Part shown: piece by piece, positions 3,349 through 28,494 of the stretch
Position numbering within the stretch: the stretch's first letter is position 1
Layout: the number at the start of each line of letters is the position of its first letter
Assembly: GCA_018238155.1 (NCBI GenBank)
Contig: JABCTZ010000011.1
Span: 62,001-126,000 of the forward strand
Source: Candidatus Heimdallarchaeota archaeon
GTDB lineage: Archaea; Asgardarchaeota; Heimdallarchaeia; JABLTI01
Direction of reading: 5' to 3'
Length of the DNA: 64,000 nt
Program-made: the position numbers and the translations under genes
The notes under the pieces: generated by a model
What the model was told of the DNA's origin: nothing
The model's input: only the letters and a program-made list of their open reading frames with translations
Databases searched by the model: none

Positions 3349-3382
3349 AATCCACTTTAGCAAAAAGAAAGAGAAAAGAAAG

Positions 3383-3411
3383 TGGTGGACCGGATGGAAT
3401 TTGAATCCATG
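3383..3411 (-). repeat. Copy of the tRNA-Ala 3' end (putative distal att site)
   Basis: These 29 nt are identical to 28387-28415, which is the CCA end, acceptor 3' strand and T-arm of the intact tRNA-Ala. Homology fades just beyond, with about 6 of the next 10 bases matching. The copy lies 35 nt after the GTPase stop codon. A truncated 3' tRNA copy at one end and the whole tRNA at the other is the classic footprint of site-specific integration. Confidence 0.8.
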
Positions 3412-3497
3412 ATCTCCATTACAAACCATTGACTTTACTACTTGATATACGGGTTTCTGAATTGTAATACTAAAATTAAACTCCTTATCTAATTCAA

Positions 3498-3665: not shown

Positions 3666-3674
3666 ATTTATTGA

Positions 3675-4148: not shown

Positions 4149-4375
4149 TCAATAATTAATAGAGATGAAGATAGAACTGATCCTGTTAAGCTAAAGAGAT
4201 TCTTCGAACTCTAGGTATTAAAAATGAGCAAAAATGATTTTGTCCTATTAGTCCATATTTTAATAGCAACAACTGCCACACGATAAAATTGAAAAGAAGG
4301 AAAGAACGAGGGGGAAAAGAGGATTTGTTAATTGAATTATTTTAAAATGATTACTAAAATAGTGCTTAAATTAAT

Positions 4376-6943: not shown

Positions 6944-7154
6944 AGAATTGTATTAACAATAAATAGTTTATAATTATTTTTAATGAAGACAAAACAAGTG
7001 AACTAAGAAAAATAGCTAAAACCGTATTAGATAAATCACGAGTACTCATCTGTTTTATTTATCCACCAATTCATATATTAGTCAACAATATTTGGTTGTC
7101 CTTCGCTATCCAAAATAATACCTTCTATTACCTTTAAAGAATAATAAGAGAAAA

Positions 7155-7330
7155 TTCTTTATAAAATACTAAATGAAAGCCAAAAATTAGTGAATTGTAA
7201 TATCAGATAAAGAAAGGGAAAGAATATTTCTCATTTAAATATCAAATGACTCTTTACTCCCTTTTCCTTTTATTTCAACAATTTTGTTTCTTTTTTCCCC
7301 TTCTACTTAATATAGAAATAAAAACAAAAA
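7155..7330. repeat. 176-bp direct repeat, copy 1
   Basis: This segment matches 11361-11536 over 176 positions with only about two differences (T/C in the 'cagataaag' stretch and one C/T in a pyrimidine run). It is non-coding, pyrimidine-rich in its second half, and begins with TTCTTTATAAAATAC. The two copies bracket 4.03 kb holding the SBBP, caspase-like and helical genes. It may be a duplicated target region or the ends of a mobile unit. No ORF or terminal inverted repeat was seen. Confidence 0.85.
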
Positions 7331-7365
7331 GAAGGATTATAAAAGACGGAAATTAGAAAAGAAAG

Positions 7366-7393
7366 TGGTGGACCGAGTGGAATTTGAATCCAC
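7366..7393 (-). repeat. Second tRNA 3'-end-like copy (att-like)
   Basis: On the minus strand this reads as T-stem/loop/T-stem, acceptor 3' strand and CCA, with paired T-arm arms GTGGA/TCCAC around TTCAAAT. It differs from the tRNA-Ala end by compensatory T-stem changes and two acceptor bases. It shares with the 3383 copy the same 20-nt left flank ending in AGAAAAGAAAGTGGTGG. No upstream tRNA half was found. It lies 30 nt after the SBBP stop codon. Confidence 0.6.
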
Positions 7394-7422
7394 GTCCTCT
7401 TTTTTGAAATGGAAAACTGAAA

Positions 7423-11901: not shown

Positions 11902-14598
11902 ATGAAATCAAGAGGGGAAGATTTAAACAAACATATAAGTCAAGCTAAATTCTACTGGATAAATATCTATAAAATGCGACCTTCTTATGTCATTTTGTGT
12001 AATTTTGATGAATTTTGGATATTTGATTGGAACAAACAACCCGATCCAATTGATAAAATACATATAGATAATTTAGTAATTAGATGGAGAGCTTTATCAT
12101 TTCTTTACACTGGTGGAGATATAAAACCTATATTCAATAATGATAGAGTTGCTGTTACAGAAGTAGCAGCACAAAAAATAGCAAAATTATATTTGAGTCT
12201 AATAAAGAGAGGTGTAAGTCATGAAAAAGCTCAAATGTTTACACTTCAATGTTTAGTTTGTTTTTTTGCTGAAGATACTGGTTTATTTCCAGTCCGAGGT
12301 TTTTTCACAGAATTAATCCAAGATTGTATAAATGGAGCTAATAGTTACGATCTTTTTAAATTACTTTTTACTAAGATGAATTCAACAAAAAAAGAAACAG
12401 GAGGTAGATTTAAAGAAGTTTCATATTTCGATGGTGGTATTTTTGAAATCATACAACCTATTGAATTAAACAAGAGTGAATTGGAAAATTTACTCGCAGT
12501 AGCTCTTCATGATTGGTCTAAAATCCAACCTGCTATTTTTGGCAATATATTTGAATCAAGTCTAAGAAAAGATGAACGTCATAAATATGGTGCTCATTAT
12601 ACAAGAGAATCAGACATTATGAAAATAATTGAGCCAACTATTCTGCGACCGATTAGATTAAAAATTAATGAGGTAAAATCACTAAAAGATTTGGAGAAGA
12701 TTTGGATTTCTTTAAGTAAAATGAGAATTCTAGATCCTGCTTGTGGAAGTGGTAATTTTCTCTATATAGCGTTTAGGGAACTAAAATATTTAGAACTTGA
12801 TTTAATACGAAAAATGATAACTGATTATCCATCACTTGAGAAGAAAAAATTCTCTTTACAATCAAAAATTAAATCAACACAATTTTTCGGAATTGATACT
12901 AATCCTTTTGCAATAGAACTTGCCAAAATAACATTATCATTCGCAAAGAAAGATGCAATAGATACTTTTAATGAATTCAATAATCAGCGTTTGTTGCATT
13001 ATGATGGTGAGAGTCCTTTGCCTTTTGATAATCTAGATACAAATTTCATCATTGATGATGCCCTATTTATTGAATGGCCGGTTGCAGATATAATCATTGG
13101 TAATCCTCCATTTCAGTCTAAAAATAAGATGATTGAAGAATTTGGACCAGAATATGTGGAGAAGTTAAGAAAACAATTTCCAGATGTAAATGGTAGAGTA
13201 GATTACTGTGTTTATTGGTTCCGCAAAGCTCATAACAAGTTAAAAGAAGGTGGTAAAGCAGGGCTTGTTGGTACAAATACAATCAGACAAACTTATTCAA
13301 AAAAAGATGGGTTAGAGTATATTATTGAAAATAATGGGACTATTATAGAAGCTGTTTCCACTATGCCATGGAGTGGGGAAGCTCAAGTTCACGTTTCCAT
13401 TGTAAATTGGATTAAGGGAGAGATAGATGAATCTAAGAATAAGAAATTACTATTCTATGATGAGAAAAACCCCAATAATTTACTTGAGGAATATGATCTA
13501 GAATGGATACCTTCTTCTCTATCACAAAAAATAGATGTCATCTCAGCTAAAGAATTGATTACAAATAAGAATTCAGGAACTTGTTACCAAGGTCAAACTC
13601 ATGGACACAGCGGGTTTATTTTATCTCGACAACAAGCTAAAGATATTTTCAAAAGGGAACCTGAAGCAAGAGAAATAATTTTTCCTTACTTAATAGCGAA
13701 CGCAATGCTGGGTAATATAAAATCTCGTCCAGACCGATTAGTGATAGATTTTCAATCGATGTCTTTATTTGATGCACAGAGATTTAAAACCCCATTTAAA
13801 ATAGTAAAACAAAAAGTTCTACCAACAATTGAACAAAAAGCTGATGAAGAAAAGAAGTTATTTGAAAAACTAAAGAAAAAAGATACCGTTCGTCAAAATC
13901 ATTTAAAGAAATGGTGGTTATTTTGGAGAACTAGAAAGGATTTAATAAATCAAATTCAGACTATTCCAAGATACATTGCTTGTAGTCAGGTTGCAAAAAG
14001 ATCAATATTTGATTTTGTCTCATCAAATATTAGACTAAATGCTGCACTAATAGCATTTCCTTTAAGTGATGATTATTCATTTGGTATTTTACAGAGTTTA
14101 TTTCATTGGGAATGGATAAAAGCACGCTGTTCAACTTTGAAAGGAGATTATAGATATACAATAACAACAATCTATAATACATTTCCCTGGCCTCAATTTG
14201 GTATTATAAACGATATTGATATTCAAGATAACTTGGATGAAAAAATTGAACTTTGTATTGATGTAGCAAATAAAGCTAGAGAATTAAGAGTAACGCGGAA
14301 CAAACTAAGAGACGAAAAACATTTGTCATTAAGAGATATGTATAGAACACTAGAATTGCCTGGAGATAATATTCTAAGAAAATTACATGAAGAACTAGAT
14401 AACGCTGTAAGAAAAGCTTATTCCTATGGATTAATAGATACAGAAAAAACTTTTGATCCATTAAAACTACTTCTTCAATTGAATAACGCTTGTAAACATT
14501 TTGAAGAAGAAAATAAAAACCTTATAAAACCTGGGTTGCCATTTTTCTGTAAGAAAAAAGAATTCTATTCAGATGATTGTATAAGTTATCAAATATAA
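11902..14598 (+). CDS. Type IIL/IIG (MmeI-like) DNA methyltransferase, remainder of an R-M fusion
   Basis: The 898-aa ORF begins at the Met inside the nuclease E-M-K motif and has no ribosome site of its own, so it is best seen as the rest of a ~970-aa single-chain restriction-modification enzyme. Residues ~60-240 are the helical spacer. SAM-binding motif I DPACGSGNF starts at residue 278, and the amino-methyltransferase motif IV NPPF starts at 401, as in adenine-N6 enzymes. A target-recognition region follows (GQTHGHSGFIL) with helical C-terminal parts (LRVTRNKLRDEKHLSLRDMYRTLE). If translated separately, it would methylate without cutting. The MmeI-family assignment is strong. The recognition site cannot be read from sequence. 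Confidence 0.85.
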   Translation: MKSRGEDLNKHISQAKFYWINIYKMRPSYVILCNFDEFWIFDWNKQPDPIDKIHIDNLVIRWRALSFLYTGGDIKPIFNNDRVAVTEVAAQKIAKLYLSLIKRGVSHEKAQMFTLQCLVCFFAEDTGLFPVRGFFTELIQDCINGANSYDLFKLLFTKMNSTKKETGGRFKEVSYFDGGIFEIIQPIELNKSELENLLAVALHDWSKIQPAIFGNIFESSLRKDERHKYGAHYTRESDIMKIIEPTILRPIRLKINEVKSLKDLEKIWISLSKMRILDPACGSGNFLYIAFRELKYLELDLIRKMITDYPSLEKKKFSLQSKIKSTQFFGIDTNPFAIELAKITLSFAKKDAIDTFNEFNNQRLLHYDGESPLPFDNLDTNFIIDDALFIEWPVADIIIGNPPFQSKNKMIEEFGPEYVEKLRKQFPDVNGRVDYCVYWFRKAHNKLKEGGKAGLVGTNTIRQTYSKKDGLEYIIENNGTIIEAVSTMPWSGEAQVHVSIVNWIKGEIDESKNKKLLFYDEKNPNNLLEEYDLEWIPSSLSQKIDVISAKELITNKNSGTCYQGQTHGHSGFILSRQQAKDIFKREPEAREIIFPYLIANAMLGNIKSRPDRLVIDFQSMSLFDAQRFKTPFKIVKQKVLPTIEQKADEEKKLFEKLKKKDTVRQNHLKKWWLFWRTRKDLINQIQTIPRYIACSQVAKRSIFDFVSSNIRLNAALIAFPLSDDYSFGILQSLFHWEWIKARCSTLKGDYRYTITTIYNTFPWPQFGIINDIDIQDNLDEKIELCIDVANKARELRVTRNKLRDEKHLSLRDMYRTLELPGDNILRKLHEELDNAVRKAYSYGLIDTEKTFDPLKLLLQLNNACKHFEEENKNLIKPGLPFFCKKKEFYSDDCISYQI

Positions 14599-15918: not shown

Positions 15919-18054
15919 ATGGCTCTAGTAATAAAAAACAAGATTTCTTCATACACAAAAGAAAACAGAGTACTCATTTATCAAAAAGAGAAAAAAATTA
16001 GAGGTTCTCATTATAGTATTTATTCGGATGGAACAATAGAGATTAGAGGAAAGCTATTGAGTAGTACTAAATTTACTATACCAAAAGATTTGTTCCAATG
16101 GTTTGAAATCTCCAATCCATCAAGGATATTTTATGTGGAAATCAAATTGTTTCCAATAAACACCTATAGTGCTGATATTAAAGCACGGTTTTTATGCGAA
16201 AAATATGGAACCTTCATTCAATTTTTGGAACAGCTAGATCTAAAGATTGGAGAACAAGTTTTATTTAAACTTGATTTTAGAAATTCGAATATCAAACCCA
16301 CTCCTAAATTCCATAAAACACTAGCTTTGTTAGAATTACATTCCTTACCCTCTATTGAAACTCTAACTTATCTTTTTACTGGCGGTAAAGGGAATCGCGA
16401 GTTCTCTCTCTATAAAGATAACAGAAATGTTCTTTTTGTAAAGGCTAATGGGACGCTAAGAGATGGTGGTTCAGTCTCTCTGTCACAAGAATTGGGATAT
16501 TATATTGAGGATTGGTTTGAAAAAGATCATTTAGTTTACGCTTCCAAGGATAAAGAAGAAGCAAAAATAATAGAATCTAGAATAATTCGAAAAAATACTA
16601 CAAGACATCTTGAAAAATGCATCTATTTTCCTTATCAAGGGAAAAGTAAACCAATTTCATTTGTGATCTCTTCCCATGAATTTCAGTTAACAAGAGATGC
16701 AATTCAAGACTTTGATATCAAACAATCTTTAACAGAAAAAGGAATATCAATAAGTCGTTTTAAATCACATTCTCTTTTAATTGGAAATCATTGTGATTAT
16801 AAATTTGAGGCTAAAATTAGAAAAATTGCTCATCAATTCTCTTCGAATTATGATTGGTTCAATTCTCCTGAGGTTTACTTAGAATTTAATAATCAAAATT
16901 ATACCATTCAAGGAAATTTCAAAACAGTTGACAATATCATTACAGAAAGAAACCTACTAAAAATACTACTAATGGAAATAAAGACATCTGATAAAAATTT
17001 AGGAAGTGAATTAGAATATGCTATTGCGAGTATATTACACACTAAAAGCATGTTTAATCGAGACTACGTTTTTCCTATTCTTTTTATCAACCAAGATACT
17101 AAACGATTGAATGGTAGTTTAATCATAACTGAAAATTTCGGTTTCTCTTGCGGAATTATACTTATTGGTCCCGAAAAGGCATCTTCCCTTCAAGAATCTC
17201 CTCAAAAATTATTGAGTATTTTGAATGATTACACTGAAAAAATGAATATTCTTTCCAAAGAACGGTCAAAACTAATTCATCCCATTTCAGGCAATATAAC
17301 AACAAATATACTTCTGCAGAAAGAGGCATATCAACTTTTAGCTAATTCAAAACTTTCTGAAAACAAGATAATTCCTATTTATTGTTTATTAATGGGAATT
17401 ACTCTTACTGATTTTTGGTTATTATATAGATATTTTAGAGAATCAATTAATAATTGTCAAATGCAAAACCAGAGTGATTTTGGTATTCTTCAAGATGTTG
17501 AAAAGAAATCACCAAATTTAGCAATTTTTGATTATTTACATAATCTTTTAGTGGAAAAGGGCTATTTTGCTCTTTTAGCGCTAAAATCAAAGTTACCTCA
17601 AAATGAAGACTTGCACATTCTTTTACAAAATCAAGATCTCATACTTGAAAGATTCCCAGCTTGTATAAAAATTCGTGACATCTGGAAACGAAAGAGAGGT
17701 AAGGGAACTGCTTATGAACATGAAATAAGAAAGAAATTAATTAAGAATGGATATCAAGTAGCTTCCAATGTTATGCTTTCAAATCTTAGTAAACCATTTG
17801 AAGTTGACCACTTAGCTTTTAAGAATAACGCAATTACTCTTGTAAGCTGTAAAGATAGACGAAATATATCTTATGAACCAGATCTTCCACATTTGATAAG
17901 AGAAGCAGCAAACGTTCTTGAGTTTCGCAAAAACCTTCTTAATATTGATACTGCAATTCTTTATGTAAAAGTCAACCCCAACTTCTTTCACAATCAACAA
18001 TTACTGTTTGGACAGAAACCTTGGGTCAAAAATGTTGAAATAATAATTGAATGA
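15919..18054 (+). CDS. 711-aa protein with C-terminal PD-(D/E)XK-like nuclease domain
   Basis: The ATG follows AGGTGAT, and a TATATAT-rich stretch lies ~20 nt upstream. The first ~590 residues match nothing recognised. Within them is TKFTIPKDLFQWFEI, an AbrB-like hairpin phrase near residue 50, and a largely strand-rich middle. Residues ~590-650 give KGTAYEHEIRKKLIKNGY, FEVDHLAFKNN (Glu628, Asp630) and ITLVSCKD (Ser643-Cys-Lys645). This matches the E/D and (x)CK pattern of Mrr- or Card1/DUF1887-like nucleases. The ORF ends in ATGA overlap with the next gene, so the two are translationally coupled. It is probably a sensor-nuclease (inference). The activating signal is unknown and no CARF domain could be confirmed. 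Confidence 0.65.
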   Translation: MALVIKNKISSYTKENRVLIYQKEKKIRGSHYSIYSDGTIEIRGKLLSSTKFTIPKDLFQWFEISNPSRIFYVEIKLFPINTYSADIKARFLCEKYGTFIQFLEQLDLKIGEQVLFKLDFRNSNIKPTPKFHKTLALLELHSLPSIETLTYLFTGGKGNREFSLYKDNRNVLFVKANGTLRDGGSVSLSQELGYYIEDWFEKDHLVYASKDKEEAKIIESRIIRKNTTRHLEKCIYFPYQGKSKPISFVISSHEFQLTRDAIQDFDIKQSLTEKGISISRFKSHSLLIGNHCDYKFEAKIRKIAHQFSSNYDWFNSPEVYLEFNNQNYTIQGNFKTVDNIITERNLLKILLMEIKTSDKNLGSELEYAIASILHTKSMFNRDYVFPILFINQDTKRLNGSLIITENFGFSCGIILIGPEKASSLQESPQKLLSILNDYTEKMNILSKERSKLIHPISGNITTNILLQKEAYQLLANSKLSENKIIPIYCLLMGITLTDFWLLYRYFRESINNCQMQNQSDFGILQDVEKKSPNLAIFDYLHNLLVEKGYFALLALKSKLPQNEDLHILLQNQDLILERFPACIKIRDIWKRKRGKGTAYEHEIRKKLIKNGYQVASNVMLSNLSKPFEVDHLAFKNNAITLVSCKDRRNISYEPDLPHLIREAANVLEFRKNLLNIDTAILYVKVNPNFFHNQQLLFGQKPWVKNVEIIIE

Positions 18055-18503
18055 GAGTTAACTATATGAAACAAGATGTTCCTTTACTTGAAAGTTTATT
18101 CGGAACAAGTGATTTACCAACAATTGAAAAATATCTAACAGATGTAGAAGAAGAAACTAGAGCCAAAGCAATATGGGCATTAACGAAATTTTCTGTGGGG
18201 ATAACTTTTGAACAAGTTAGAGAAGAATTAATATCTGCAAAAAAAGACCGAACAAGGATTTTTCTAGCGGGAGCTTTATACCTTCTAAATTCTTCTTATC
18301 AATCACGAGAAATGATTTTCCTTTCCAAATATTATTTACAACATTATTTTGATGTAGAAAAAGAAGAGTTAAAAGTTGATTTTACAGGAGATTATGGACG
18401 TTCAGCAATAGTCATAGGACTTATTCTCTGGGATGTGGGATATGAAATATTTGCAACAAATACCTTGGACTTTTACGGTTTAAATTGGCTAATTGAAAAA
18501 TAA
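18051..18503 (+). CDS. Small helical partner protein (HEAT-like), 150 aa
   Basis: It starts inside the stop codon region of the nuclease gene (ATGA overlap), which argues for a stoichiometric partner. The N-terminal 60 residues resemble a single HEAT repeat pair (LPTIEKYLTDVEEETRAKAIWALTKF), followed by helices and a hydrophobic segment (SAIVIGLILWDVGYEIF). No catalytic motif was seen. It may be an immunity, adaptor or structural subunit of the 711-aa protein. No family was recognised. Confidence 0.6.
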   Translation: MRVNYMKQDVPLLESLFGTSDLPTIEKYLTDVEEETRAKAIWALTKFSVGITFEQVREELISAKKDRTRIFLAGALYLLNSSYQSREMIFLSKYYLQHYFDVEKEELKVDFTGDYGRSAIVIGLILWDVGYEIFATNTLDFYGLNWLIEK

Positions 18504-18573
18504 ACAGTTTTTCTTTTTCAATATCTGTTTTTGAAGTGGAGAATATAACACTAGATTGGAAGTACATTTTGAA

Positions 18574-20190
18574 ATGAACCAACAAAACTTTCTCACCTGG
18601 AAAACTGATCCATTTCTTATAGATCCAATACCCACAAGGAAAAATGATTGGTTAACTGCGAATAAGCTATTAGAACAAAAAGAGCAGTCAAAAATTTTCC
18701 TCAAAAATGATATCCTCAACCTTTATTCCATAATGGTTCGCAAAAACGATTTTCTTGCCGGAGAACGCCTTATTCAACGATTGCCTTATGTCTCTTTACC
18801 ACCTGATTTAGCTTCTAGTTTGCGTAAACCGTCACTAAAATTAGCTGAGAGATGCCATTACTATTTTCAAGATACTGCTATCAATTATTCTATCAAGAAG
18901 TGGCAGCAAAAGATTATTGATTATACGGAGAAGCAGCATCGACTACCATTTCCTTTATTTAGGATGAGTGATTTCTGGCAAGACTTTCTAATGCAAAAGT
19001 ACGTTCCCTTCCAATCTGCACGAGGAGAAACCTTCCATTTACCAACTATTCTCTCTAAAGATTTAGCTTATTTCTTAGGAGTAGTTATTGGCGATGGTCA
19101 TTTGAACTATTATAATATCGAATTAGTGGACTTTTCCCAAGAGCACACGATTATGTTACAAAAATTAGCCATGAAATTATTTGGTATTGAGGGTGCAATT
19201 TCTGGTGAGAAAAAAGTGTGGTTGTTACATTTGAATAATAAATGGCTTGTACGGTTAGCTAATTTCCTAACGGATCAACCAATTACCGGGAAAAAATACC
19301 ATGCTTTACGCGAACCACTTATTTTTACGTCGGATGAGAATCTTCGATGGGAATTCTGGAATGGAGTATTAGATGCAGATGGCAGCTATAAATCACAGAT
19401 CAATTTCTGTTCTTCATCAAAAAAATTCATAGAAGCATTTGGCTCATTTCTAGATTCATACAATTTTGACTATAAAATACGAGAATTAACCTCTGACTTG
19501 GGGAATGGTTATTCTTTAAATATTAAAGCGAAACATAAACATTTTTTTAGCCAATTCATACAACCAAGACATCCAATAAAGCAAGAAGATTTTTCACAGC
19601 ACTTAAATCGTCAATCAAACAAAAATCTCAATAATCCTACATTCAAGCGTATGTATATTAAAGATATTAATCCTCAGACACTAGTTACTATTAATGATAC
19701 TGCTTTTTTTAATTTCGAACTCATACCTATGCTCAATGTCACAAATTGCACCAGCTATTTACGAAAGTCTCGTGAAACTAACCAATGGACACAGCAAGAT
19801 TTAGCTAATTTTCTAGAAATTCAAAAAGGACGATTAGCAGCATATGAATACACCGGAAATCTCCCTATTGCTTATCTTGTCAAACTTCTTCCAATTATCC
19901 CTAAGAGTACTCCTCATTTAATGCTATTTCTAAAACGGAACAAACATAATTATTTTCGTTCACGAAAAACAATTGCTAAGTTAGATCTAGAACCAACTAG
20001 TAGTTTGCTTTCTTTAATGAAATCATTAGTGTTCTGTAAGGATTATATTACGATTAAAAATAAAAGACCAATTATTACTGAATTGAAAGACCAATTTGAA
20101 ATAGAAATTGTGAAAAAGAATCTAATTAAAAATTCGGTTTTGCATCGATTTATTAAAACATTTTTTTTGCTGAGTACAGAACGAGAATAA
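18574..20190 (+). CDS. LAGLIDADG homing endonuclease with C-terminal helix-turn-helix
   Basis: ATG at 18574 is preferred over TTG at 18556 because the paralogue at 63345 aligns from it residue for residue. Two LAGLIDADG helices are visible: LAYFLGVVIGDGHLNY and WEFWNGVLDADGSYK, each ending in the catalytic acidic residue, so one chain can form the complete active site. A lambda-repressor/XRE-like helix-turn-helix follows near residues ~405-435 (SRETNQWTQQDLANFLEIQKGRLAAYE), then a basic tail. No intron or intein host sequence flanks it, so it is free-standing. It sits inside the island and has a decayed copy at 62.5-63.3 kb. It probably mobilises itself or neighbouring DNA by double-strand cutting. 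Confidence 0.88.
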   Translation: MNQQNFLTWKTDPFLIDPIPTRKNDWLTANKLLEQKEQSKIFLKNDILNLYSIMVRKNDFLAGERLIQRLPYVSLPPDLASSLRKPSLKLAERCHYYFQDTAINYSIKKWQQKIIDYTEKQHRLPFPLFRMSDFWQDFLMQKYVPFQSARGETFHLPTILSKDLAYFLGVVIGDGHLNYYNIELVDFSQEHTIMLQKLAMKLFGIEGAISGEKKVWLLHLNNKWLVRLANFLTDQPITGKKYHALREPLIFTSDENLRWEFWNGVLDADGSYKSQINFCSSSKKFIEAFGSFLDSYNFDYKIRELTSDLGNGYSLNIKAKHKHFFSQFIQPRHPIKQEDFSQHLNRQSNKNLNNPTFKRMYIKDINPQTLVTINDTAFFNFELIPMLNVTNCTSYLRKSRETNQWTQQDLANFLEIQKGRLAAYEYTGNLPIAYLVKLLPIIPKSTPHLMLFLKRNKHNYFRSRKTIAKLDLEPTSSLLSLMKSLVFCKDYITIKNKRPIITELKDQFEIEIVKKNLIKNSVLHRFIKTFFLLSTERE

Positions 20191-20250: not shown

Positions 20251-20380
20251 CTCTCACAGCTCAGAAGTGAGAGTGAATGTTCTTGACCAAAACTCTATCG
20301 CTGAACGCTCCACTCGTGCGACCTAAAAGCCCACGCTTCGGTGGTCTTTTTTAACGGTCGTCTTCGACACGAAAACCAGA
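20251..20380. other. Locally GC-rich, hairpin-dense non-coding stretch
   Basis: Within the 455-nt gap after the homing endonuclease gene there is a 7-bp hairpin (20251-20257 with 20267-20273). Further inverted repeats are CGACC (20319-20323) with GGTCG (20356-20360), and GTCG/CGAC near 20357-20368. Base composition is clearly less A+T-rich than the surroundings. This could be a small structured RNA, a terminator array or the scar of a module boundary. No tRNA, CRISPR or known riboswitch pattern was recognised. Confidence 0.4.
20331..20352 (+). terminator. Hairpin plus T-run
   Basis: CCAC and GTGG pair around a GCTTCG loop and are followed by CTTTTTT. This looks like an intrinsic-type terminator downstream of the homing endonuclease gene. 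Confidence 0.45.
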
Positions 20381-20546
20381 GAGAAATCAAAGAGATGATT
20401 TTGTCGTGAAAAAATACCCAAGAAAGAACATGAAAATAGGAAAAAAAGCAGAAAAAGAGATTCTAAAGGGACTTAGAATAACCTTCCGCTATACAAAAAG
20501 AAGCCTTCTCCTGCCTTATTTTCAGGCTGATTTTTCGAGACTTTTT

Positions 20547-20603
20547 GTTTTTTGACGAATTCTTAACATACAGTAAATTCTTGTTTCTGTTTTTTGGCGA
20601 ATT
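20547..20603 (+). promoter_or_regulatory. Paired direct repeats upstream of the eight-gene operon
   Basis: GTTTTTTGACGAATT (20547-20561) recurs as GTTTTTTGGCGAATT (20589-20603), with 14 of 15 positions equal and starts 42 nt apart, close to four helical turns. A TTTTTAAA-like TATA element lies near 20610. AGGTGA at 20635-20640 is the ribosome site for the ATG at 20646. Tandem sites on one DNA face suit cooperative binding by a regulator, plausibly the winged-helix protein encoded first in the operon. Confidence 0.45.
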
Positions 20604-20645
20604 TTGTGCTTTTTAAACAAAATTTGATAGAATTAGGTGAGAATA

Positions 20646-21275
20646 ATGACTTTGGAATCATCTGTGACGCAAGAACAGCATATTCATAAGGATTTATCTA
20701 GTGCTAAAGTTAAAGTGACAAACACAGTTCAAACTTTCTGTAAATACTTAATTGACAGCGCATTGAATCATGGCAGATATTATTATCCTTCATTGAATAC
20801 TTTCAAATTTGATGAGAAATTGACATTAGTCTCAAGAACAATAGATCGCTTAGTGAGATTTTTAGTTCAAGTTAATATTCTAACTAAATTAACACGATCG
20901 AAAACACAAGCTTATCAAGTCAATGTCAATAATCCATTATTCCACCTTATTTTGAGAATATATCATCCTGTTCATCCAATTACCATTTGTACAAAACAAG
21001 ACATCATTTCAATAAAAAGAATTGAAGAACTACAAAGCGGTGTAGAGCACTTGAAACATGTTTTTAGTCTATTAGAATCAAAAGAGGATCATAGATTAGA
21101 ACTTCATAGAGATTTGTTGGATGAAATAACTGAATATACTACAGTCTCAGATATTTCAACAGAAGATCTAAAAGAGAAATTAAGGTCAATCATCTTAGGC
21201 TCTAGCACAAGTGCAGAGATTAACAACTTTTCCATATTAAATGAATTTTTGCTAGAGTATAACAAGGGGGATTAA
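20646..21275 (+). CDS. Operon gene 1: winged-helix-like protein
   Basis: ATG at 20646 is chosen for its AGGTGA site (GTG at 20637 is in frame but overlaps that site). The 209-aa product has a helix-rich N-terminal half (TVQTFCKYLIDSAL, then VSRTIDRLVRFLVQVNILTKLTRS, then QAYQVNVNNPLF) that reads as a winged helix with a beta wing. The C-terminal half is helical and acidic. It could repress the operon through the paired repeats just upstream, or act as a DNA-binding subunit. The next gene begins 1 nt after its stop. No named family was recognised. Confidence 0.6.
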   Translation: MTLESSVTQEQHIHKDLSSAKVKVTNTVQTFCKYLIDSALNHGRYYYPSLNTFKFDEKLTLVSRTIDRLVRFLVQVNILTKLTRSKTQAYQVNVNNPLFHLILRIYHPVHPITICTKQDIISIKRIEELQSGVEHLKHVFSLLESKEDHRLELHRDLLDEITEYTTVSDISTEDLKEKLRSIILGSSTSAEINNFSILNEFLLEYNKGD

Positions 21276-21276
21276 T

Positions 21277-22842
21277 TTGGGATTCATAAACACTCTACCT
21301 AAAGCCATCACTACCGTTCTTCGAGATTATTCTTTTCCTTCTGGTGTTGATAAAGACACCATTCGCAAAGCTGTTAGGTGTGATGAAGACCTGCTTTTTG
21401 TTACACCAGATCTAGATGAGCAATTGCAGGTTGCAGTTACTTTAGCTCTTCTAAATGCTCGATTTGCCGACTCATCATCTATGATTATTGTGCGAACTTC
21501 TGATGATGCAAGAAAAATATACAGTATACTCAACCCACAACATCAGGTTAACGTTTCTAGTGATAGTGTAACAAATGAAACTATTTCTCCACCAATAGAT
21601 AAATATGCCATTCGTGTTGCTTCCACTTTTTCCAAATTTAAGGGAAATAGCTTCTCTTCAGCTAATGATTGTATAATAATTACAAGCTATGATTGCTTGC
21701 TTCGAAATTTACTCTATCGAAAAAGTTCCGAAGTGGATTTAAAGAACAGAATTACTTTACCACATACAAATGCCTATATTTTCGTTGACCCATTTGGCGA
21801 AAATAGATCTCTACGAAGAGCTTTAGAGAGCTTCATAACTTTTGATATAGATAGCATATTGTTTTTCAAGAGAAGAACAAATAACCTTAACATCAGAATG
21901 CATTATATCTCACCTGGCATAGTTTCTTTAGATGAACAGAAGAATATGCTAAAAGTAACATCAACAGTCAAAATTTCTGGAAATCTTGAGCTTGACTTTA
22001 GTTTTTCAACGGATAGACATGACATTAGAGAAAATCTCCAATCTGTTCTACCATATTTAATGTTATTAAGACTTTATTCTGGGCATCCAACTAAAAAACA
22101 ATTAACACGTCGAGTGCAAAATTCGGTTAATTATCGTTTACTTCAAAACACTCACGAATCAAAAACTAATCCTGAATTTCTTCAGGAAGTTTTAATTGAG
22201 ACATTGTTTCAATCAACTGATTCTACTGAATGCTTATTTGAATCGTATCAGCAAAGTCTTGGAAAATTCGCTCTTGCATTAAGAGCTAATGGAAATTCAG
22301 GAAAATATATCCTCACACCATTTGGCAAGAAGTTTCTCATAGCCTCAACATATTTTAAAGAAATACAAGATGATCCCATTAGTGTTATATTGGATATTAA
22401 AAACAGAACACAGAATGATATTCTAGATTGGAACAGCATCTCAGAAATATTCCATAATTTTACTAATGGAAAATTAGCTTACGATGATCTGCAAATACTG
22501 CTAGGGATATTAAAAACAGAAGCGAATGTTGAAGATGAGACAATTGCTAACATTCTATCCAGAACACAAGATAGTTATTCTGTTTTTAAAGTCTGTAGAT
22601 TACTTGCAAGCTTTCAGGATCATATGACACCTGAAGCAAAAAAGAGCTTCAATATCATTAGCAAGGCATTAGGGCAAAATCTTGACACAGTAAATGAACC
22701 GTTAGTAGGAAAGAAAGATAGATTAGCAATCGAGCAAGCGATAAAAGAAGAACTAGAATTTGCTACAGATCCAATGACAAAAGCACAAATTGCTCTAAAT
22801 CTCTCATTATTGAGTTCTGATGTAAAACAAGCAATTGGTTAA
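21277..22842 (+). CDS. Operon gene 2: degenerate SF2-helicase-like protein lacking Walker motifs
   Basis: The TTG start follows a strong GGGGG. The N-terminal ~210 residues track the first RecA-like domain of the operon's own helicase (gene 7). IRKAVRCDEDLLFVTPDLDEQ replaces the Walker A region. MIIVRTSDDARKIYSIL matches motif Ia. IIITSYDCLLRNLLYRK matches the ATIDKL segment. AYIFVDPFGE stands where DEIH should be, and SILFF stands in place of SAT. The P-loop lysine and DExH acid pair are absent, so it should not hydrolyse ATP there. The rest is helical (LTRRVQNSVNYRLL, then a winged-helix-like stretch). It may pair with gene 7 as an inactive regulatory or structural subunit (inference). Confidence 0.6.
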   Translation: MGFINTLPKAITTVLRDYSFPSGVDKDTIRKAVRCDEDLLFVTPDLDEQLQVAVTLALLNARFADSSSMIIVRTSDDARKIYSILNPQHQVNVSSDSVTNETISPPIDKYAIRVASTFSKFKGNSFSSANDCIIITSYDCLLRNLLYRKSSEVDLKNRITLPHTNAYIFVDPFGENRSLRRALESFITFDIDSILFFKRRTNNLNIRMHYISPGIVSLDEQKNMLKVTSTVKISGNLELDFSFSTDRHDIRENLQSVLPYLMLLRLYSGHPTKKQLTRRVQNSVNYRLLQNTHESKTNPEFLQEVLIETLFQSTDSTECLFESYQQSLGKFALALRANGNSGKYILTPFGKKFLIASTYFKEIQDDPISVILDIKNRTQNDILDWNSISEIFHNFTNGKLAYDDLQILLGILKTEANVEDETIANILSRTQDSYSVFKVCRLLASFQDHMTPEAKKSFNIISKALGQNLDTVNEPLVGKKDRLAIEQAIKEELEFATDPMTKAQIALNLSLLSSDVKQAIG

Positions 22843-23350
22843 TATTAAAAAAAATAGTTCGTTACCACTAAAAACTGTTACAGGAAAACCACCAATAGGG
22901 AGAAATGTTACGTACTATTCTACAAAAGAAATCCCAGAGCATTTCTATAAAAAATGCGGTGACTGTTACTATTTTAGCAAAAATTATTGCATTTTCTGGC
23001 GACGAGTGAAAGAGACTGCAGAGCGAAAAGTCCCAAAAGACAAAATGGGCTATATTTCAACCTCAATTCTTAGAAAAAATACTGTTGCCTGTGAAGCATT
23101 TCTAGAAGTAGAAACAATGGTGATACATTTCACTATTGATGAATTCAATAAAACAGTAACAAAAAGATTTGATGGCTATACTGAAGATGGGGAGGAAAAA
23201 TTTACTCATTTTTGCCCAATCTGTAGTAAGCAAGGAGAAATGGTACCGCTAAAGGCATTAGGCAATGCTGCGTTTCCTCAGCAGGGATCAACTCCGACAA
23301 GATGTCCAAGATGTGGTTCATCATTTAAGCTTTATCAGGAAAGAAATTGA
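22835..23350 (+). CDS. Operon gene 3: two-cluster zinc-ribbon protein
   Basis: The TTG start overlaps the previous gene by 8 nt. Residues ~42-52 contain CGDCYYFSKNYC, a three-Cys cluster that could use a further Cys downstream. Near residues 127-160, FCPICSK and RCPRCGSSF supply four Cys in the CxxC...CxxC arrangement of a zinc ribbon. Between them is a strand-rich piece (MVIHFTIDEFNKTVTKRFDGY). The protein has 171 aa and no enzyme motif. It probably acts as a nucleic-acid or protein-binding subunit in the complex. No named family was recognised. Confidence 0.65.
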   Translation: MVNIKKNSSLPLKTVTGKPPIGRNVTYYSTKEIPEHFYKKCGDCYYFSKNYCIFWRRVKETAERKVPKDKMGYISTSILRKNTVACEAFLEVETMVIHFTIDEFNKTVTKRFDGYTEDGEEKFTHFCPICSKQGEMVPLKALGNAAFPQQGSTPTRCPRCGSSFKLYQERN

Positions 23351-23375
23351 AACATTTAGTAGTTAAGTGATAAAA

Positions 23376-24872
23376 ATGACTGAAAAAAATACTGGAAAAC
23401 AACAAATAAAATGTGTGAAAGATAGCAGTCATATACTTTATGACCGGATATACAATTTAACAGGTTTGGCAGCTGAAGAGATAGAAGAAGCAAGAACTAA
23501 TTTAGGAACTCCTATTTATCAAGGCTATGATGTACGATTGATCGATGATGATCTGTTTATTGGAGATGTAAGGTATAAACTAAAGGATATTAAATTCATC
23601 TTTGATTATGCAGGCATTCAAGAAGAGATTAAACAACGATTGCTTGATTATGGCTGTTATTATGAACGGAAAACTAATTTGAGTGGATGGTTTAATGTCG
23701 AAAGAATCGAGCCAAAAAGAGCTGTTTATGTTGATGCTATTAGATTAAGCAATGGGTTCAACAATCTCTATCTAAAATCAGTGATCAAGAGTGACCTTAG
23801 CATTATCTTCGCACTGCAAGGAATGATACCCGATCAAAGAGTGCTAAAGAAGTATGTAGATAAAATTGGTGATGCATATCTCTATGGCTATCACAGTCAT
23901 GCAAATAAGCTATGCAATTCAGCAGAAGGTTTAGCAGCAGATGTTCTCTGGGAATTCACTAACAAGCTGATAGAACCTTACAACTTTAAAATAAGTAATC
24001 GAATTTCTGACCGACTCTGCCAATTGAGACGCATGGTTGGAAATTATAGCAGTATGGCAAAAACAGCTACAGATGCCTTATTTAACACCACATACCAACT
24101 CTTTGAGGAAGAAATATGGAAGATTCTTGAAGAGAAAAAAATTAATTATTTGGGAGTTGGCGGTTTTTCACATTTCAGTTATTATTCAGACCTTTCTTGG
24201 ATGGGATTGCCATTAGATCTTGGTGATGCATTAAAGAAAGGAGGGCACTATACATTAGTCGATACTATATTAGCTGAAGAAATAACTCATGAAGATATTA
24301 AGCGGCTAACTGCATTCAAAGGAGAGGATAATTATACTGTTACGAAATATGGGTGTGACATCCTCTATGAGAAGAAGGAAGAACTTTTCGAAAGCTCATG
24401 CTTTTATCGTGGGAAACAATATTCATCTTTTAGAGAAGCTTGCAGGGAAGAAATTGACAAATTTGATCGCCTATTATCGAATATCGGTGATAGATTAGAA
24501 GAGGAGCATCTGTCTATTAAAAGCCCTGATCTAGGGAATAATTTAGCCGTTAAACTCTGGCGATTAACGTTAGACTGGGAATATTTGCCAGCAAAATTGA
24601 GGGAGAACCTGGGAGAAAGTGTTTTTCAAATATGTCAAGAAGAGATCCAAAAGCTTGACTTTCAGCCATTAGTATGGATGCGATCGAAACACATAGAACA
24701 AAGAGTGAATCAGGAAATTGCTAATTTTGAGGAACTTGCATTCTTATTTACTGATAGGGAAGAAAAGCACCACCAAAAACATGGCAGAAAAATCGGTCAA
24801 TTATCACCAATCACTAAAGAATTCAGTGAAACATTATTGGAGTTACCTGTATCATGGATAAACTTGGAGTAA
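23376..24872 (+). CDS. Operon gene 4: large protein of unknown function
   Basis: ATG at 23376 is preferred, with GTGA at 23367-23370 as ribosome site (GTG at 23367 is in frame). The 498-aa product is soluble, mixed alpha/beta at the N-terminus (DVRLIDDDLFIGDVRYKLKDIKFIFDYAG) and helical further on (FNTTYQLFEEEIWKILEEKKINYLGVGG). Possible metal ligands include YHSHANKLC and a His-rich DREEKHHQKHG near the C-terminus, but no classic nuclease or ATPase motif was seen. Its last 19 nt overlap the next gene, a sign of coupled translation. It may be the system-specific core component. No family was recognised. Confidence 0.6.
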   Translation: MTEKNTGKQQIKCVKDSSHILYDRIYNLTGLAAEEIEEARTNLGTPIYQGYDVRLIDDDLFIGDVRYKLKDIKFIFDYAGIQEEIKQRLLDYGCYYERKTNLSGWFNVERIEPKRAVYVDAIRLSNGFNNLYLKSVIKSDLSIIFALQGMIPDQRVLKKYVDKIGDAYLYGYHSHANKLCNSAEGLAADVLWEFTNKLIEPYNFKISNRISDRLCQLRRMVGNYSSMAKTATDALFNTTYQLFEEEIWKILEEKKINYLGVGGFSHFSYYSDLSWMGLPLDLGDALKKGGHYTLVDTILAEEITHEDIKRLTAFKGEDNYTVTKYGCDILYEKKEELFESSCFYRGKQYSSFREACREEIDKFDRLLSNIGDRLEEEHLSIKSPDLGNNLAVKLWRLTLDWEYLPAKLRENLGESVFQICQEEIQKLDFQPLVWMRSKHIEQRVNQEIANFEELAFLFTDREEKHHQKHGRKIGQLSPITKEFSETLLELPVSWINLE

Positions 24873-25093
24873 TGCTCTTTTTGCTAAAGGAGTACAATGA
24901 ATTTGGCACTATTCATCCAAAGAGCGCAAAAGAGATCTCTATAGAGGTGGAATTGGCTCCCAGTGAAACATATCTTACTCTTGAGACATTACAGCAAGAT
25001 GGATTGATCTGGCGAGTGGGTAGGAAAAATCTTTACAGGTATGGTATTAAGGAAGAATCTTTAGCTCATCTAAACAAGCTATTCTCTGCTTAA
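24854..25093 (+). CDS. Operon gene 5: small winged-helix protein, 79 aa
   Basis: It starts 19 nt inside gene 4. The sequence runs helix (KLGVMLFLLKEYNEF), helix (SAKEISIEVEL), recognition helix (SETYLTLETLQQDGLI) and wing (WRVGRKNLYRYGI), a textbook MarR/Lrp-like winged helix. With no effector domain, it may serve as a DNA-binding subunit of the encoded machinery or as a second regulator. Confidence 0.65.
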   Translation: MDKLGVMLFLLKEYNEFGTIHPKSAKEISIEVELAPSETYLTLETLQQDGLIWRVGRKNLYRYGIKEESLAHLNKLFSA

Positions 25094-25107: not shown

Positions 25108-25404
25108 TTGCCGTCTGAGATGTTAATTGATTATCAGAAGCTTGATGAAGTAGCAGAAAATTATGAGAAGAAGTTTGAGATAGAGAAACAAGAAGGGCTC
25201 CTTGTGAAGGAGATCAAGGCATTGCTTAGTCAACTGGTCTTTATTGAATATAATAACCGATTCGACATGATTGATTCAGCTGTTGATGATATTGTTGAGG
25301 CTTGTTCTCCTGAAAATTTAGATGAAAAATTCGAGCAATTTTTAGAGGATAAGCTTGAATCAATTTGGGAATATATTATCAGTGCAAGATTGGTGGAGGG
25401 ATAA
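25108..25404 (+). CDS. Operon gene 6: small acidic helical protein, 98 aa
   Basis: It lies between gene 5 (14-nt gap) and the helicase (3-nt gap). The TTG start has no strong ribosome site, and ATG at 25120 is the alternative. It is wholly helical and acidic (LDEVAENYEKKFEIEKQEGLLVKEIKALLSQL split by short turns), like a small oligomerisation or adaptor protein. No family was recognised. Confidence 0.55.
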   Translation: MPSEMLIDYQKLDEVAENYEKKFEIEKQEGLLVKEIKALLSQLVFIEYNNRFDMIDSAVDDIVEACSPENLDEKFEQFLEDKLESIWEYIISARLVEG

Positions 25405-25407
25405 GGA

Positions 25408-27735
25408 ATGTCTCGAGGAATTCTTGTAAAATCGGTTTTTGATTTGCCACCATCAGTGTGTAAAGTATCTGATTGCTATGTAGGCGATGACGAAGTTGGA
25501 TTAGAGAATATAGGAAAAAGTATCCAAGAGCTATTCTCACACAAGCTCTACTCTTATCAATTAGAAGCAATTAGAACTGTACTCAAAGGAAATGATTGTT
25601 TCCTTGCTGTTGGAACAGGTTCTGGAAAATCTGAAGCATTTTTATTCCCAATTTTGGAGGATATCGTTGCCGGAAAAATTAATTGTGCGATTATAATTTA
25701 TCCAACAAAACAACTAGCAGAGGATCAAGAACAACGCATTGCAAAATACTGCAATAAGATTCATGAAACGACCGGCAAAAGAATTACTTACAGTAGGTAC
25801 AATGGTGATTTAACTCGAAAGGAAATTGACTTTGTAGAAAAAAGTAAACCAAATATTATTCTTGCAACTATTGACAAATTATTTTATCGTTTCTTTAAGG
25901 AAGGCAATGAAGACTTTCTTGATTGGCTGCTCAATGCTGGTGCTTTCGTTGTTGATGAGATTCATGCCGGCTCAGGAGGATATTTAGATCATGTTCGAGA
26001 AATAATTTCAATCTTGAAAAAGATTAATCCAACTTTAAGAGTTATTCTTGCTTCCGCTACTGTAAAGGAAGTGGAAACTTTTCGCGATAAATTTCTCCCA
26101 TCAGCTCAAATAATTACAGGAAATGCTACAAGAGGTTCTGTTAGAGTGATGATTCTTCAGCCAGAGTCAATAGAAGATCTGCTTTTGGAAAAGATAGACC
26201 CCTATTTGTGCAAAGTAAAAGGAGTTTGCGTAATTTTTGTTGATGATATTCGAAAGGTAGGTGAGTTGGTTGCAAAATGTAATGAACTGTATAAGAAAAA
26301 AACAAACATACCTGATGAAATCCTAAGAATACATTCACCATTTGCTTGCATTAATAGTCAGTTAAATAGTCAAGAGAAAACATACGTTGTAAAAGGAGTT
26401 CATAATGGTACAATTAGGTTTGTGTTTACAACGTCCTTATTGGAACTGGGGATGGACATACCAAATATCGTTCATATAATAAATATTTCTTGGCCCATTA
26501 CGGGAGTTAATGGTCTATTGCAACGATTGGGGAGATTGCGATTTGTAGACCTTTCCGAGAAAAAGAATTTCTCATTAGTGCTAAATCCAGAAAGAACAAT
26601 TGATGAATATTACTTGAGCCATCCTGAAAAAATAGAAGAAATCATGATGAAAAACAAGACTGAACGAATATTATTTGACTCAAAATCATTGCAAAGAGCA
26701 CAAGCATTCGTTCTCTTAAGACTTGTTCTTGGTGTAACTAAAATTAAAGATATCTTATCCCTATGCACAGATGAGCTAGATAACGGAATTACACGAACCG
26801 CAATATCATTACTTTTCGCCAAAGGTTTGTTATCAACTGAAAATCATCACTTGCCGTTTCTGGAAAGAACCTTAATTATAGCAGAAAGAAATGAAGTTAA
26901 TGCTTTTATTCGAAAGCATCGTATTCGCTCAACTGAATACCAATGGGAAATAATACTGAAGAATTCCAAAAATCAAGAAGAAAAAATCGCTTCAATAGAT
27001 GAACGACGAATAATCTTTTCAGCTTTGCAAAGGAATTTGTTACATCTAGGAAGCAAAGGGAATGTTTTTCGAGTAAAAAGTTTGACTAATGAAAAAGTGT
27101 TCGTTGAAAAGCTAAATATCATCAAAACAAATATTGAACGAAACAAAGTAAAGCCACCAATTTTTATTATCGATGGTCAATCTAGAACGCAGCAATTTGA
27201 ACAGCTAAATATTAGATTTGGAAGGATGATCATTCGCTGGGAAACAAGTGAAATAAAGGAATATTCTCGAGATGGACAATTACTTGAAAACCAAATGAAA
27301 AAGTCAACTCAAGGAAATGACACATTAGTAGTTACTGATAATGAAAAGCGTCAAAATCACATTTGGGATGAAAAAACAAGTGGAGTGCTCATAGAATTTG
27401 TGAACATCTCAAAAGCTCTTACCAACAAACAAAAGAAACAATCACTAAGGCTATTTAGAGAATTACTGGTGAAAAGTATTGAGCTAGAGCTTCACATCTC
27501 AGAATCATCATTTCGCACATATTTGAATAATTTTGAAAACAAAATTGCTCTTTATGATCGAGGTGGGGAGCTGGGAAATGCTGAAGCAGTTTTCACACAA
27601 ATAAAACGAGTGCTAAAGCACATGCTCAGCTTATTGCTTGAGAATACAAACGACTCTATACTCCCTCTAGTTGGCAATATCTCGGAAAAATCAATAGAAA
27701 TAACCAAAAAAATGTTAGAGGAGATGGTAAAGTAA
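25408..27735 (+). CDS. Operon gene 7: SF2 DEAD/DEAH-type helicase (Lhr/YprA-like)
   Basis: The ATG follows GGAGGGATAAGG. Motifs: Q-like YSYQLEAI (49-56), Walker A GTGSGKS (69-75), Ia IIYPTKQLAEDQ, ATIDKL, DEIH (183-186), SAT (216-218), motif V FTTSLLELGMDIP and motif VI QRLGRLRF. The pattern is closest to Lhr- and YprA/MrfA-like SF2 enzymes that move on DNA. The usual DUF1998 cysteine cluster is not apparent. The C-terminal ~350 residues (winged-helix-like TRTAISLLFAKGLL, then strand-rich, then helical) are unassigned. It is probably the motor of the eight-gene system. It differs from the host Lhr encoded at 38.8-41.6 kb. Confidence 0.85.
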   Translation: MSRGILVKSVFDLPPSVCKVSDCYVGDDEVGLENIGKSIQELFSHKLYSYQLEAIRTVLKGNDCFLAVGTGSGKSEAFLFPILEDIVAGKINCAIIIYPTKQLAEDQEQRIAKYCNKIHETTGKRITYSRYNGDLTRKEIDFVEKSKPNIILATIDKLFYRFFKEGNEDFLDWLLNAGAFVVDEIHAGSGGYLDHVREIISILKKINPTLRVILASATVKEVETFRDKFLPSAQIITGNATRGSVRVMILQPESIEDLLLEKIDPYLCKVKGVCVIFVDDIRKVGELVAKCNELYKKKTNIPDEILRIHSPFACINSQLNSQEKTYVVKGVHNGTIRFVFTTSLLELGMDIPNIVHIINISWPITGVNGLLQRLGRLRFVDLSEKKNFSLVLNPERTIDEYYLSHPEKIEEIMMKNKTERILFDSKSLQRAQAFVLLRLVLGVTKIKDILSLCTDELDNGITRTAISLLFAKGLLSTENHHLPFLERTLIIAERNEVNAFIRKHRIRSTEYQWEIILKNSKNQEEKIASIDERRIIFSALQRNLLHLGSKGNVFRVKSLTNEKVFVEKLNIIKTNIERNKVKPPIFIIDGQSRTQQFEQLNIRFGRMIIRWETSEIKEYSRDGQLLENQMKKSTQGNDTLVVTDNEKRQNHIWDEKTSGVLIEFVNISKALTNKQKKQSLRLFRELLVKSIELELHISESSFRTYLNNFENKIALYDRGGELGNAEAVFTQIKRVLKHMLSLLLENTNDSILPLVGNISEKSIEITKKMLEEMVK

Positions 27736-27736
27736 A

Positions 27737-28408
27737 ATGCCTGATACAGTAATAATTGGTGATGTTCATCTTGGAGCAGATGGTTGTTTAAAGGAGGAAT
27801 TCAAAGAAGCACTGCTGAGCGTTGCAGAAGAAGTGGATCTAATTCTATTCAATGGTGACTTTATCGATAATTATGGAGAGAAGGGAAAAAAAGCTCTTGA
27901 ACAATTCTTAGAATGGATAGACAATAAAAGTTGGAAAGAAAAAATAGTCTTCATAACTGGTGGTATGGGTCACGAGGGAAATATTCTATTTGATTGTCCT
28001 ACAATTCAAATTTTGCCTTGGGCAATTTTAAACACAAAAGAAGGGCGAATTATTGTCTGTCATGGACATAATATTGGTCTGGTGAAAAAAGATGATGAGA
28101 CGTGGGTAGAAGCATCCTGTCGACTTAAGCAGCGCTTAGTGCGCAATGGTTCTGAGTTCTTGCCAGAGATTTTATCGACAGACAAGATTATTATCAGCCA
28201 CACTCATGTACCATTTTACAAAATGGATAATGGTATGTTTGCAACAGGGGGATGGCGAATAAAAGAGGACTGGTCTGAGGACTATATCAGAAGGAATGTT
28301 GGAGTGTTTATCATAATAGATGATGAAGATAGAGATGACCCAATAAAAATGAAAAGATGGTTAAATGATAAAAAGGGAAGAAAAATTGGTGGACCGGATG
28401 GAATTTGA
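27737..28408 (+). CDS. Operon gene 8: metallophosphoesterase (calcineurin-like, ICC/YfcE-type)
   Basis: It begins 1 nt after the helicase stop. Metal-site motifs: GDVHLG (Asp9, His11), NGDF (Asp41), a modified third motif GGMGHEGN (His79; the usual Asn is absent), CHGHN (His109, His111) and HTHVPF (His155, His157). The family includes archaeal phosphoesterases linked to Lhr helicases, and Mre11-like nucleases. Here the likely substrate is nucleic acid processed with the helicase. The last residues (GGPDGI) and TGA are encoded by the inverse complement of the tRNA-Ala CCA end and T-arm. The C-terminus is therefore shaped by the attachment site, and the gene overlaps the tRNA tail-to-tail. Confidence 0.85.
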   Translation: MPDTVIIGDVHLGADGCLKEEFKEALLSVAEEVDLILFNGDFIDNYGEKGKKALEQFLEWIDNKSWKEKIVFITGGMGHEGNILFDCPTIQILPWAILNTKEGRIIVCHGHNIGLVKKDDETWVEASCRLKQRLVRNGSEFLPEILSTDKIIISHTHVPFYKMDNGMFATGGWRIKEDWSEDYIRRNVGVFIIIDDEDRDDPIKMKRWLNDKKGRKIGGPDGI

Positions 28409-28494
28409 ATCCATGGCCTCCTCAATTTTTTTCTTATAGGACGCATCCTTTAAGATTGCAAATGAGGCGATCTACCAGTCTGATCTACCGGCCC
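28387..28494 (-). tRNA. tRNA-Ala (anticodon TGC) with ~31-nt intron and encoded CCA
   Basis: Acceptor GGGCCGG pairs with CCGGTCC including G3-U70, the alanine identity pair. D-stem is GATC/GATC with loop AGACTGGTA. Anticodon stem CCTCA/TGAGG carries loop TTTGCA plus T38, giving anticodon TGC. About 31 nt (from ATCTTAAAGG to the A7 run) interrupt between positions 37 and 38, the canonical archaeal intron site. T-stem ATGGA/TCCAT surrounds TTCAAAT. Discriminator A73 and CCA are in the DNA. Its 3' 29 nt are duplicated exactly at 3383-3411. It is the presumed insertion target of the island to its left. Confidence 0.9.

Follow-up and report, generated by a model that had tools for sequence, protein, structure and literature searches.

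To our knowledge, few kinds of DNA mobilised by Cas1 are known. Casposon target duplications are 14-15 bp long, and casposon integrases are regarded as the ancestors of CRISPR adaptation. Casposons carry a PolB, inverted repeats and short target duplications (PMC4046053; review PMC9939771), and their target overlaps 4-7 nt of a tRNA (PMC4046053). Helicases of the YprA/MrfA family, components of DISARM, Dpd, Druantia and ARMADA, also travel in tRNA islands (PMC12458937), and of the integrative mobile elements described from Heimdallarchaeum, one was placed beside a tRNA gene by a viral integrase (PMC8813620).

The operon described here lies in a 64,000-nt stretch (the window) of Candidatus Heimdallarchaeota archaeon (GTDB Asgardarchaeota; Heimdallarchaeia; JABLTI01), namely positions 62,001-126,000 of the forward strand of contig JABCTZ010000011.1 (GCA_018238155.1). 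It sits in a 25-kb tRNA-integrated mobile island of this Heimdall-type Asgard archaeon, with the following features:

3379..3411, no strand: distal direct repeat at the far boundary, with a 29-bp exact copy of the tRNA 3' end
7362..7399, no strand: internal near-copy of the tRNA-end repeat, 21 kb from the tRNA; composite or tandem island
11902..14598, + strand: MmeI-like restriction-modification enzyme (Pfam), cargo
15919..18054, + strand: 711-aa protein, a recurrent neighbour, with a C-terminal NERD nuclease-like stretch just under the Pfam cut-off
18051..18503, + strand: 150-aa protein, a recurrent neighbour of the NERD gene, with no Pfam family
18556..20190, + strand: LAGLIDADG and HTH protein, 544 aa, beside nearly every Cas1-like locus
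20286..20380, no strand: conserved non-coding segment, GC-rich, that separates the LAGLIDADG gene from gene 1
20637..21275, + strand: gene 1, which opens the operon, 212 aa; looks winged-helix-like, judged by eye only
21277..22842, + strand: gene 2, predicted degenerate RecA-1 domain (about aa 20-215), helical region and winged-helix-like C-terminus
22835..23350, + strand: gene 3, zinc (or Fe-S) domain rich in Cys, which in relatives forms the C-terminus of the gene 2 protein and is frameshifted off here
23367..24872, + strand: gene 4, predicted Cas1-like integrase, 501 aa, with invariant E187, H269 and D284
24854..25093, + strand: gene 5, N-terminal piece with an HTH that is TrmB-like in an intact relative; its frame is broken in the window
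25108..25404, + strand: gene 5, C-terminal piece; a single 172-188 aa protein in relatives
25408..27735, + strand: gene 7, SF2 DEAD/DEAH helicase, YprA/MrfA-like, with intact Walker A and DEIH
27737..28408, + strand: gene 8, calcineurin-like metallophosphoesterase whose 3' end overlaps the tRNA gene
28390..28494, - strand: intron-bearing tRNA gene that forms the near boundary, 3' end toward the island (Rfam RF00005, 52.7 bits)

Like casposons (Cas1-solo group 2; Krupovic et al. 2014, PMC4046053), this appears to be a mobile element with a stand-alone Cas1-family integrase. Further points of likeness are the tRNA 3' end as the insertion site, proteins with HTH or zinc-binding regions, tandem copies and, in some cases, Cas4-like nucleases and helicases, and no CRISPR array was found in the window, where TRF reported neither tandem repeats nor a CRISPR-like array. 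There are differences as well. No PolB was found among the larger genes of the window island, and no terminal inverted repeats were found in the islands examined (nothing above 13 bp within 700 bp of the ends of five islands, or six boundary pairs). The Heimdall repeats measure 24-42 bp and lie inside the tRNA, whereas the casposon target has a short overlap with the last nucleotides, and the Heimdall Cas1 of ~500 aa carries, or is partnered with, zinc, winged-helix and Walker-less RecA modules. A YprA-type helicase, a calcineurin-type phosphoesterase, a LAGLIDADG companion and an Asgard host also set it apart. Because a PolB, inverted repeats and a short target duplication were looked for and not found, we do not class the element among the casposons, though it may act in a similar way.

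With the CRISPR adaptation module (Cas1-Cas2, Cas4) the locus has in common the Cas1 fold and the E/H/D triad, and the N-terminus of a PD-(D/E)XK nuclease from the solo loci described below resembles Cas4 by eye; it differs in that no Cas2 was recognised and no CRISPR-like array was found in the window. It is also akin to the YprA/MrfA systems (PMC12458937), as gene 7 is nearest to YprA and has fused relatives with an MZB (DUF1998-type) zinc domain, but its helicase is partnered with Cas1 and a calcineurin phosphoesterase. The Aloposons, HeimV and HeimM of Heimdallarchaeum (PMC8813620) are likewise integrative mobile elements of Heimdall-group archaea. The words Cas1 and casposon are absent from the paper that describes them, the 2025 survey of YprA (PMC12458937) has the string 'Cas1' once, in a passage on Cas11, and we found no description of the present element in the open-access literature, which is weak evidence of absence.

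Gene 4 drew attention by a pattern spotted by eye, EGLAA...GGFSHF...LPLDLGD, which was then tested against Cas1. Compared alone with 26 genuine Cas1 proteins from the same class it gave P 4.8e-4; together with its fused homologues the match improved to P 9e-8 (hhalign) over 289 columns covering both Cas1 domains, in register on the E/H/D triad, while the best of 60 column shuffles reached 0.017 and the reversed control 0.68. E187, H269 and D284 are invariant in nine gene 4 homologues and align on the triad positions of Cas1. A Foldseek search of the PDB with the AlphaFold2 model of gene 4, itself a poor model, returned Cas1 structures at ranks 1 to 6 (best E 1.9e-3, probability 0.99). Sister proteins strengthen the connection: among the solo proteins of the same genomes, in which HTH, zinc and Cas1 regions form one chain of 620-700 aa, two members exceed the Pfam Cas1 cut-off (25.6 and 22.8 against 22.3 bits), which gene 4 itself does not reach, and the profile of the solo family scores 1.8e-58 with gene 4-type proteins and 7e-11 with the Cas1 family. 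These profile and model comparisons identify gene 4 as a divergent member of the Cas1 family. An NCBIfam match to hisZ was dismissed (20 bits against a cut-off of 272). The genome also encodes an ordinary Cas1, on contig C15.

Cas1-like loci are numerous, with about 8-14 per genome in the better-assembled genomes, and take several forms. The split type (the window and eight or more other loci) has gene 1, gene 2/3, gene 4, gene 5, helicase and phosphoesterase in succession. In the fused type, found on contig C19 of the same genome and at three more loci, genes 1-4 form one chain of 1000-1311 aa, the RecA-like part N-terminal and the zinc and then the Cas1-like domain at the end, with helicase and phosphoesterase separate. 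A third type combines one long chain with zinc and Cas1-like parts and a helicase-phosphoesterase fusion. The solo type pairs the HTH-zinc-Cas1 protein with a PD-(D/E)XK nuclease gene (Pfam PDDEXK_1, E 3e-9 to 3e-14) and lacks helicase, phosphoesterase and RecA-like domain. Near relatives are labelled Candidatus Heimdallarchaeota. Outside the genus one clear relative was seen, in G016 of the same class, for which the SOLO profile E-value of 3.6e-101 is too flattering because the G016 sequence was itself drawn into that profile. Searches of viral contigs found no relatives.

The last 29 bp of the tRNA at the window island (anticodon TGC, read from the sequence) are repeated exactly 25.0 kb away. 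Beyond these repeats the island is bordered at one end by a small-GTPase gene (2065-3348) and at the opposite end by CPBP-PHP genes. Four congeners (G005, G002, G007 and G006) have their GTPase, tRNA, CPBP and PHP genes adjacent, with nothing resembling the 25-kb stretch in between; the site is empty. In G008 this tRNA bears a 16-kb island whose gene 4 is only 43% identical to that of the window, although the PHP protein of G008 is 91% identical to its window counterpart; G008 also has a second att, followed by a phosphoesterase-like fragment, which looks like a tandem insertion. At the same tRNA site in G004 there is a six-kb insert (L208 907-6994) that encodes an ABC transporter and a permease and lacks Cas1; it is perhaps a relict or an element made up of cargo alone. 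The four-kb segment between two att copies of the window (3412-7361), which holds a UvrD-like helicase gene (4376-6943), is perhaps the remnant of a second element.

A second island, of the solo type, occupies 8.0 kb of contig C6 (L160 3946-11925) at a Leu-type tRNA, again read from the sequence. This site is empty in G001, where the right flank, which in G000 follows the distal repeat, starts 2 bp past the tRNA; it is also empty in G003 and G002, and in G008 a third-type element, and more, is found at that tRNA. The distal repeat copy at the tRNA-Leu site is closer to the empty-site tRNA than the proximal copy is, as if the element carries its own tRNA end. An Orc1/Cdc6-type initiator is encoded inside the C6 island (L160 10066-11241) and in its G008 relative (L211 1897-3681), which suggests that some elements self-replicate. 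Three other loci have imperfect direct repeats, and the repeats overall span 24-42 bp and include the T-arm. A tRNA stands at the edge of 9 of the 27 scanned loci (eight by Rfam, one by sequence), with its 3' end directed inward in 9 of 9; a rough binomial estimate for this pattern is below 1e-9 (28 loci), to be read with the caution that the loci are non-independent, two pairs sharing a site and many stretches being short. For about two thirds of the scanned loci there is no tRNA in the stretch available, many such stretches being short.

Gene 2 was the starting point of this analysis. The initial annotation had described it as a Walker-less helicase paralogue, alignable by eye with the first RecA domain of gene 7 and paired with that helicase in a heteromeric machine. 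The open reading frame is as described (21277-22842, + strand, 521 aa), with TPDLDEQ at the P-loop position and VDPFGE at the DExH position. Its end is a frameshift: genes 2 and 3 are a single protein of ~680 aa with a Cys-rich C-terminal domain in intact relatives, and one extra base near 22,836 separates them in the window, where gene 5 is also split, near 25,090. Similar splits are present in several relatives, so decay is as likely as assembly error, and several copies of the element, including that of the window, carry frameshifts and may be dead.

Searches with single sequences or families (Pfam, PADLOC, PHROGs, PDB) were uninformative for both gene 2 and gene 4, and Pfam, PADLOC and PHROGs assigned gene 2 to no family; BLASTP of gene 2 against gene 7 returned no match (best E 2.7). 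Profiles were more informative. Homologues of gene 2 were gathered within the genus from split operons (full copies), from fused genes and from a third set with another fusion pattern, and 15 homologous domains made up the N-terminal profile. Against gene 7-type helicases this profile gave a weak score (P 0.026), with motifs Ic, II and III in register. In comparison with a broad profile of 34 DEAD RecA-1 sequences it reached P 1.3e-5 in local and 3.7e-7 in global mode, with 0.17 for the best of 40 column shuffles, and the alignment runs from the strand ahead of the P-loop through motif III with all motif strands in order. Since the pooled profile matches DEAD RecA-1, the alignment first made by eye was right. 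The P-loop position has the consensus VTPD..E, and the DExH position reads VDPF, VNPL or YLPV; as both are non-canonical in all members, the loss is ancient rather than a local accident. Residues after 230 have no match to helicases (P 0.38), and profile comparison found no RecA-2 domain. The notion of a helicase paralogue thus holds for one RecA-1-like domain lacking Walker A, and gene 2 is not a helicase. Profile comparisons suggest that its first ~215 residues are a degenerate SF2 RecA-1 domain, a likeness visible at profile level only, which bears out the earlier proposal in part.

Two other readings of gene 2 deserve consideration. Its N-terminus could be an unrelated Rossmann-like domain that resembles RecA by convergence, as might be argued from the weak scores of single gene 2 subfamilies against RecA-1 (P 0.16 to 7e-4) and from structure prediction. 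AlphaFold2, run with nine sequences, yielded poor models (mean pLDDT 43 and 51, the latter for gene 2, with most of its N-terminus below 50), and no RecA fold is among the Foldseek matches listed for gene 2; only the predicted order of strands and helices agrees with RecA-1. Convergence is unlikely, given the strength of the pooled match and the ordered motif strands. We regard as more improbable still that genes 2 and 7 form a heteromeric helicase with one inactive half, at the core of a DISARM-, BREX- or Druantia-like antiviral system. Gene 7 does look active, with SF2 DEAD and Helicase_C domains and intact motifs, and it scores against BrxH, Cas3 and DruE models. The degenerate RecA-1 domain would suit such a pair, and it was seen only in loci that also carry the helicase, being absent from the solo loci without one, a pattern that fits physical coupling. 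Yet homologues of gene 2 are fused to Cas1 rather than to the helicase, which is itself separate or fused to the phosphoesterase; gene 2 offers no RecA-2 domain; and the locus is a tRNA-bounded island with a predicted Cas1 integrase. Among the other genes of the operon none was recognised as part of DISARM, BREX or Druantia, and a reading as a DISARM or BREX defence system was rejected, as the partners are absent.

The fusion of genes 1-4 in paralogous loci indicates that the Walker-less domain is a part of the Cas1 protein and not of a helicase dimer, and comparison of these architectures points to the Cas1-like gene 4, which went unrecognised in the initial annotation, as the primary partner of gene 2. 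A multi-subunit machine remains likely, as the initial annotation supposed from the shared operon, although the view of gene 2 as chiefly its inactive helicase half is not supported; gene 2 is most likely a DNA-binding or docking arm of the Cas1 complex, and its co-occurrence with the helicase means that it may also hold the latter, so that part of the earlier idea is kept.

How would such an element move? Genes 1-8 would constitute the core of an integrative mobile element, in which the gene 4 Cas1 most probably inserts the element into the 3' portion of a tRNA gene, an event that would leave a copy of the tRNA 3' end as a direct repeat at each boundary. For the other genes we infer the following tasks: gene 2/3, with its predicted Walker-less RecA-1, winged-helix and zinc regions, would be the arm of the integrase for DNA binding and assembly, as a covalent part of the Cas1 chain in some relatives; helicase gene 7 and phosphoesterase gene 8 would probably unwind and trim the ends; and in solo members the PD-(D/E)XK nuclease takes the place of both. 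The cargo includes restriction-modification enzymes. No tyrosine recombinase (PF00589) was found in the examined islands, and the genome has only two matches (C8:50 kb and C19:71 kb); on this ground we infer that Cas1 is the integrase, and that these are mobile elements whose integration Cas1 catalyses seems to us the favoured, if far from certain, interpretation.

Some observations sit uneasily with catalysis by Cas1. Repeats of 24-42 bp that reach into the tRNA are longer than casposon target duplications and like the att sites of tyrosine recombinases, terminal inverted repeats were not found in the islands examined, and the repeats are partly element-like; the cutting could be done by the LAGLIDADG protein or by a recombinase in trans. 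The islands might then be ordinary tRNA-targeting elements moved by another enzyme, either a tyrosine recombinase in trans or a LAGLIDADG cut followed by homologous recombination through the carried tRNA end, with the Cas1-like operon as cargo, for example a DNA-capture or defence module. Repeats of this kind, a distal copy like the ancestral tRNA and the lack of inverted repeats all fit site-specific recombination, a LAGLIDADG gene lies beside nearly all loci, restriction-modification cargo is common and YprA-type helicases are typical of defence systems (PMC12458937). We nevertheless consider movement by another enzyme a distinctly less probable account, because no recombinase gene was found in the examined islands and only two in the genome, because the Cas1-like gene is the sole gene common to element types of very different content, and because its catalytic triad is conserved. 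Returning to Cas1-driven movement, the chances are about even that these loci, expanded to some 8-14 per genome in one Heimdall-group genus, represent a separate class of tRNA-inserting elements that lack the PolB and inverted repeats of casposons and combine Cas1 with a Walker-less RecA/zinc arm and with either a helicase-phosphoesterase pair or a PD-(D/E)XK nuclease. If true, the range of Cas1 partners would widen to a pseudo-helicase arm, a YprA-type helicase and a phosphoesterase, and its targets to the 3' half of tRNA genes; the elements would offer a concrete system for testing target choice and duplication by Cas1, and would be a main route for the flow of defence genes in archaea that stand near the origin of eukaryotes.

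Other features of the island and its relatives may be useful in future comparisons. The PDB chain nearest to gene 7 is YprA (6znp, E 8.5e-16); its DEAD core is clear, and the C-terminal MZB domain has E 0.12 in the window protein and is above the Pfam cut-off in a fused relative. Upstream of gene 1, the non-coding segment at 20286-20380 has a mean column identity of 80% in eight loci whose proteins are about 40% identical; evidence for RNA structure was unconvincing (covariation term +1.25, z -1.6), and the segment could be a recombination site, an operator or an RNA. Just 5' of gene 1, short repeats (TTTYTGTTTTTTGRCGAATT) at 20542-20561 and 20584-20603 are 42 bp apart, with one to three copies in relatives by eye; because the 'spacers' are related across different genomes, we read the TTTYTGTTTTTTGRCGAATT repeats as degenerate tandem duplications or operators. 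A complete type I restriction-modification set (HsdM, HsdS, HsdR) lies beside a third-type element (L096 11955-17823). The LAGLIDADG and HTH protein is multi-copy, with 13 matches in the genome and an intein-like middle part, and a shortened copy of its gene at 62557-63345 (- strand) of the window is possibly the remnant of another island.
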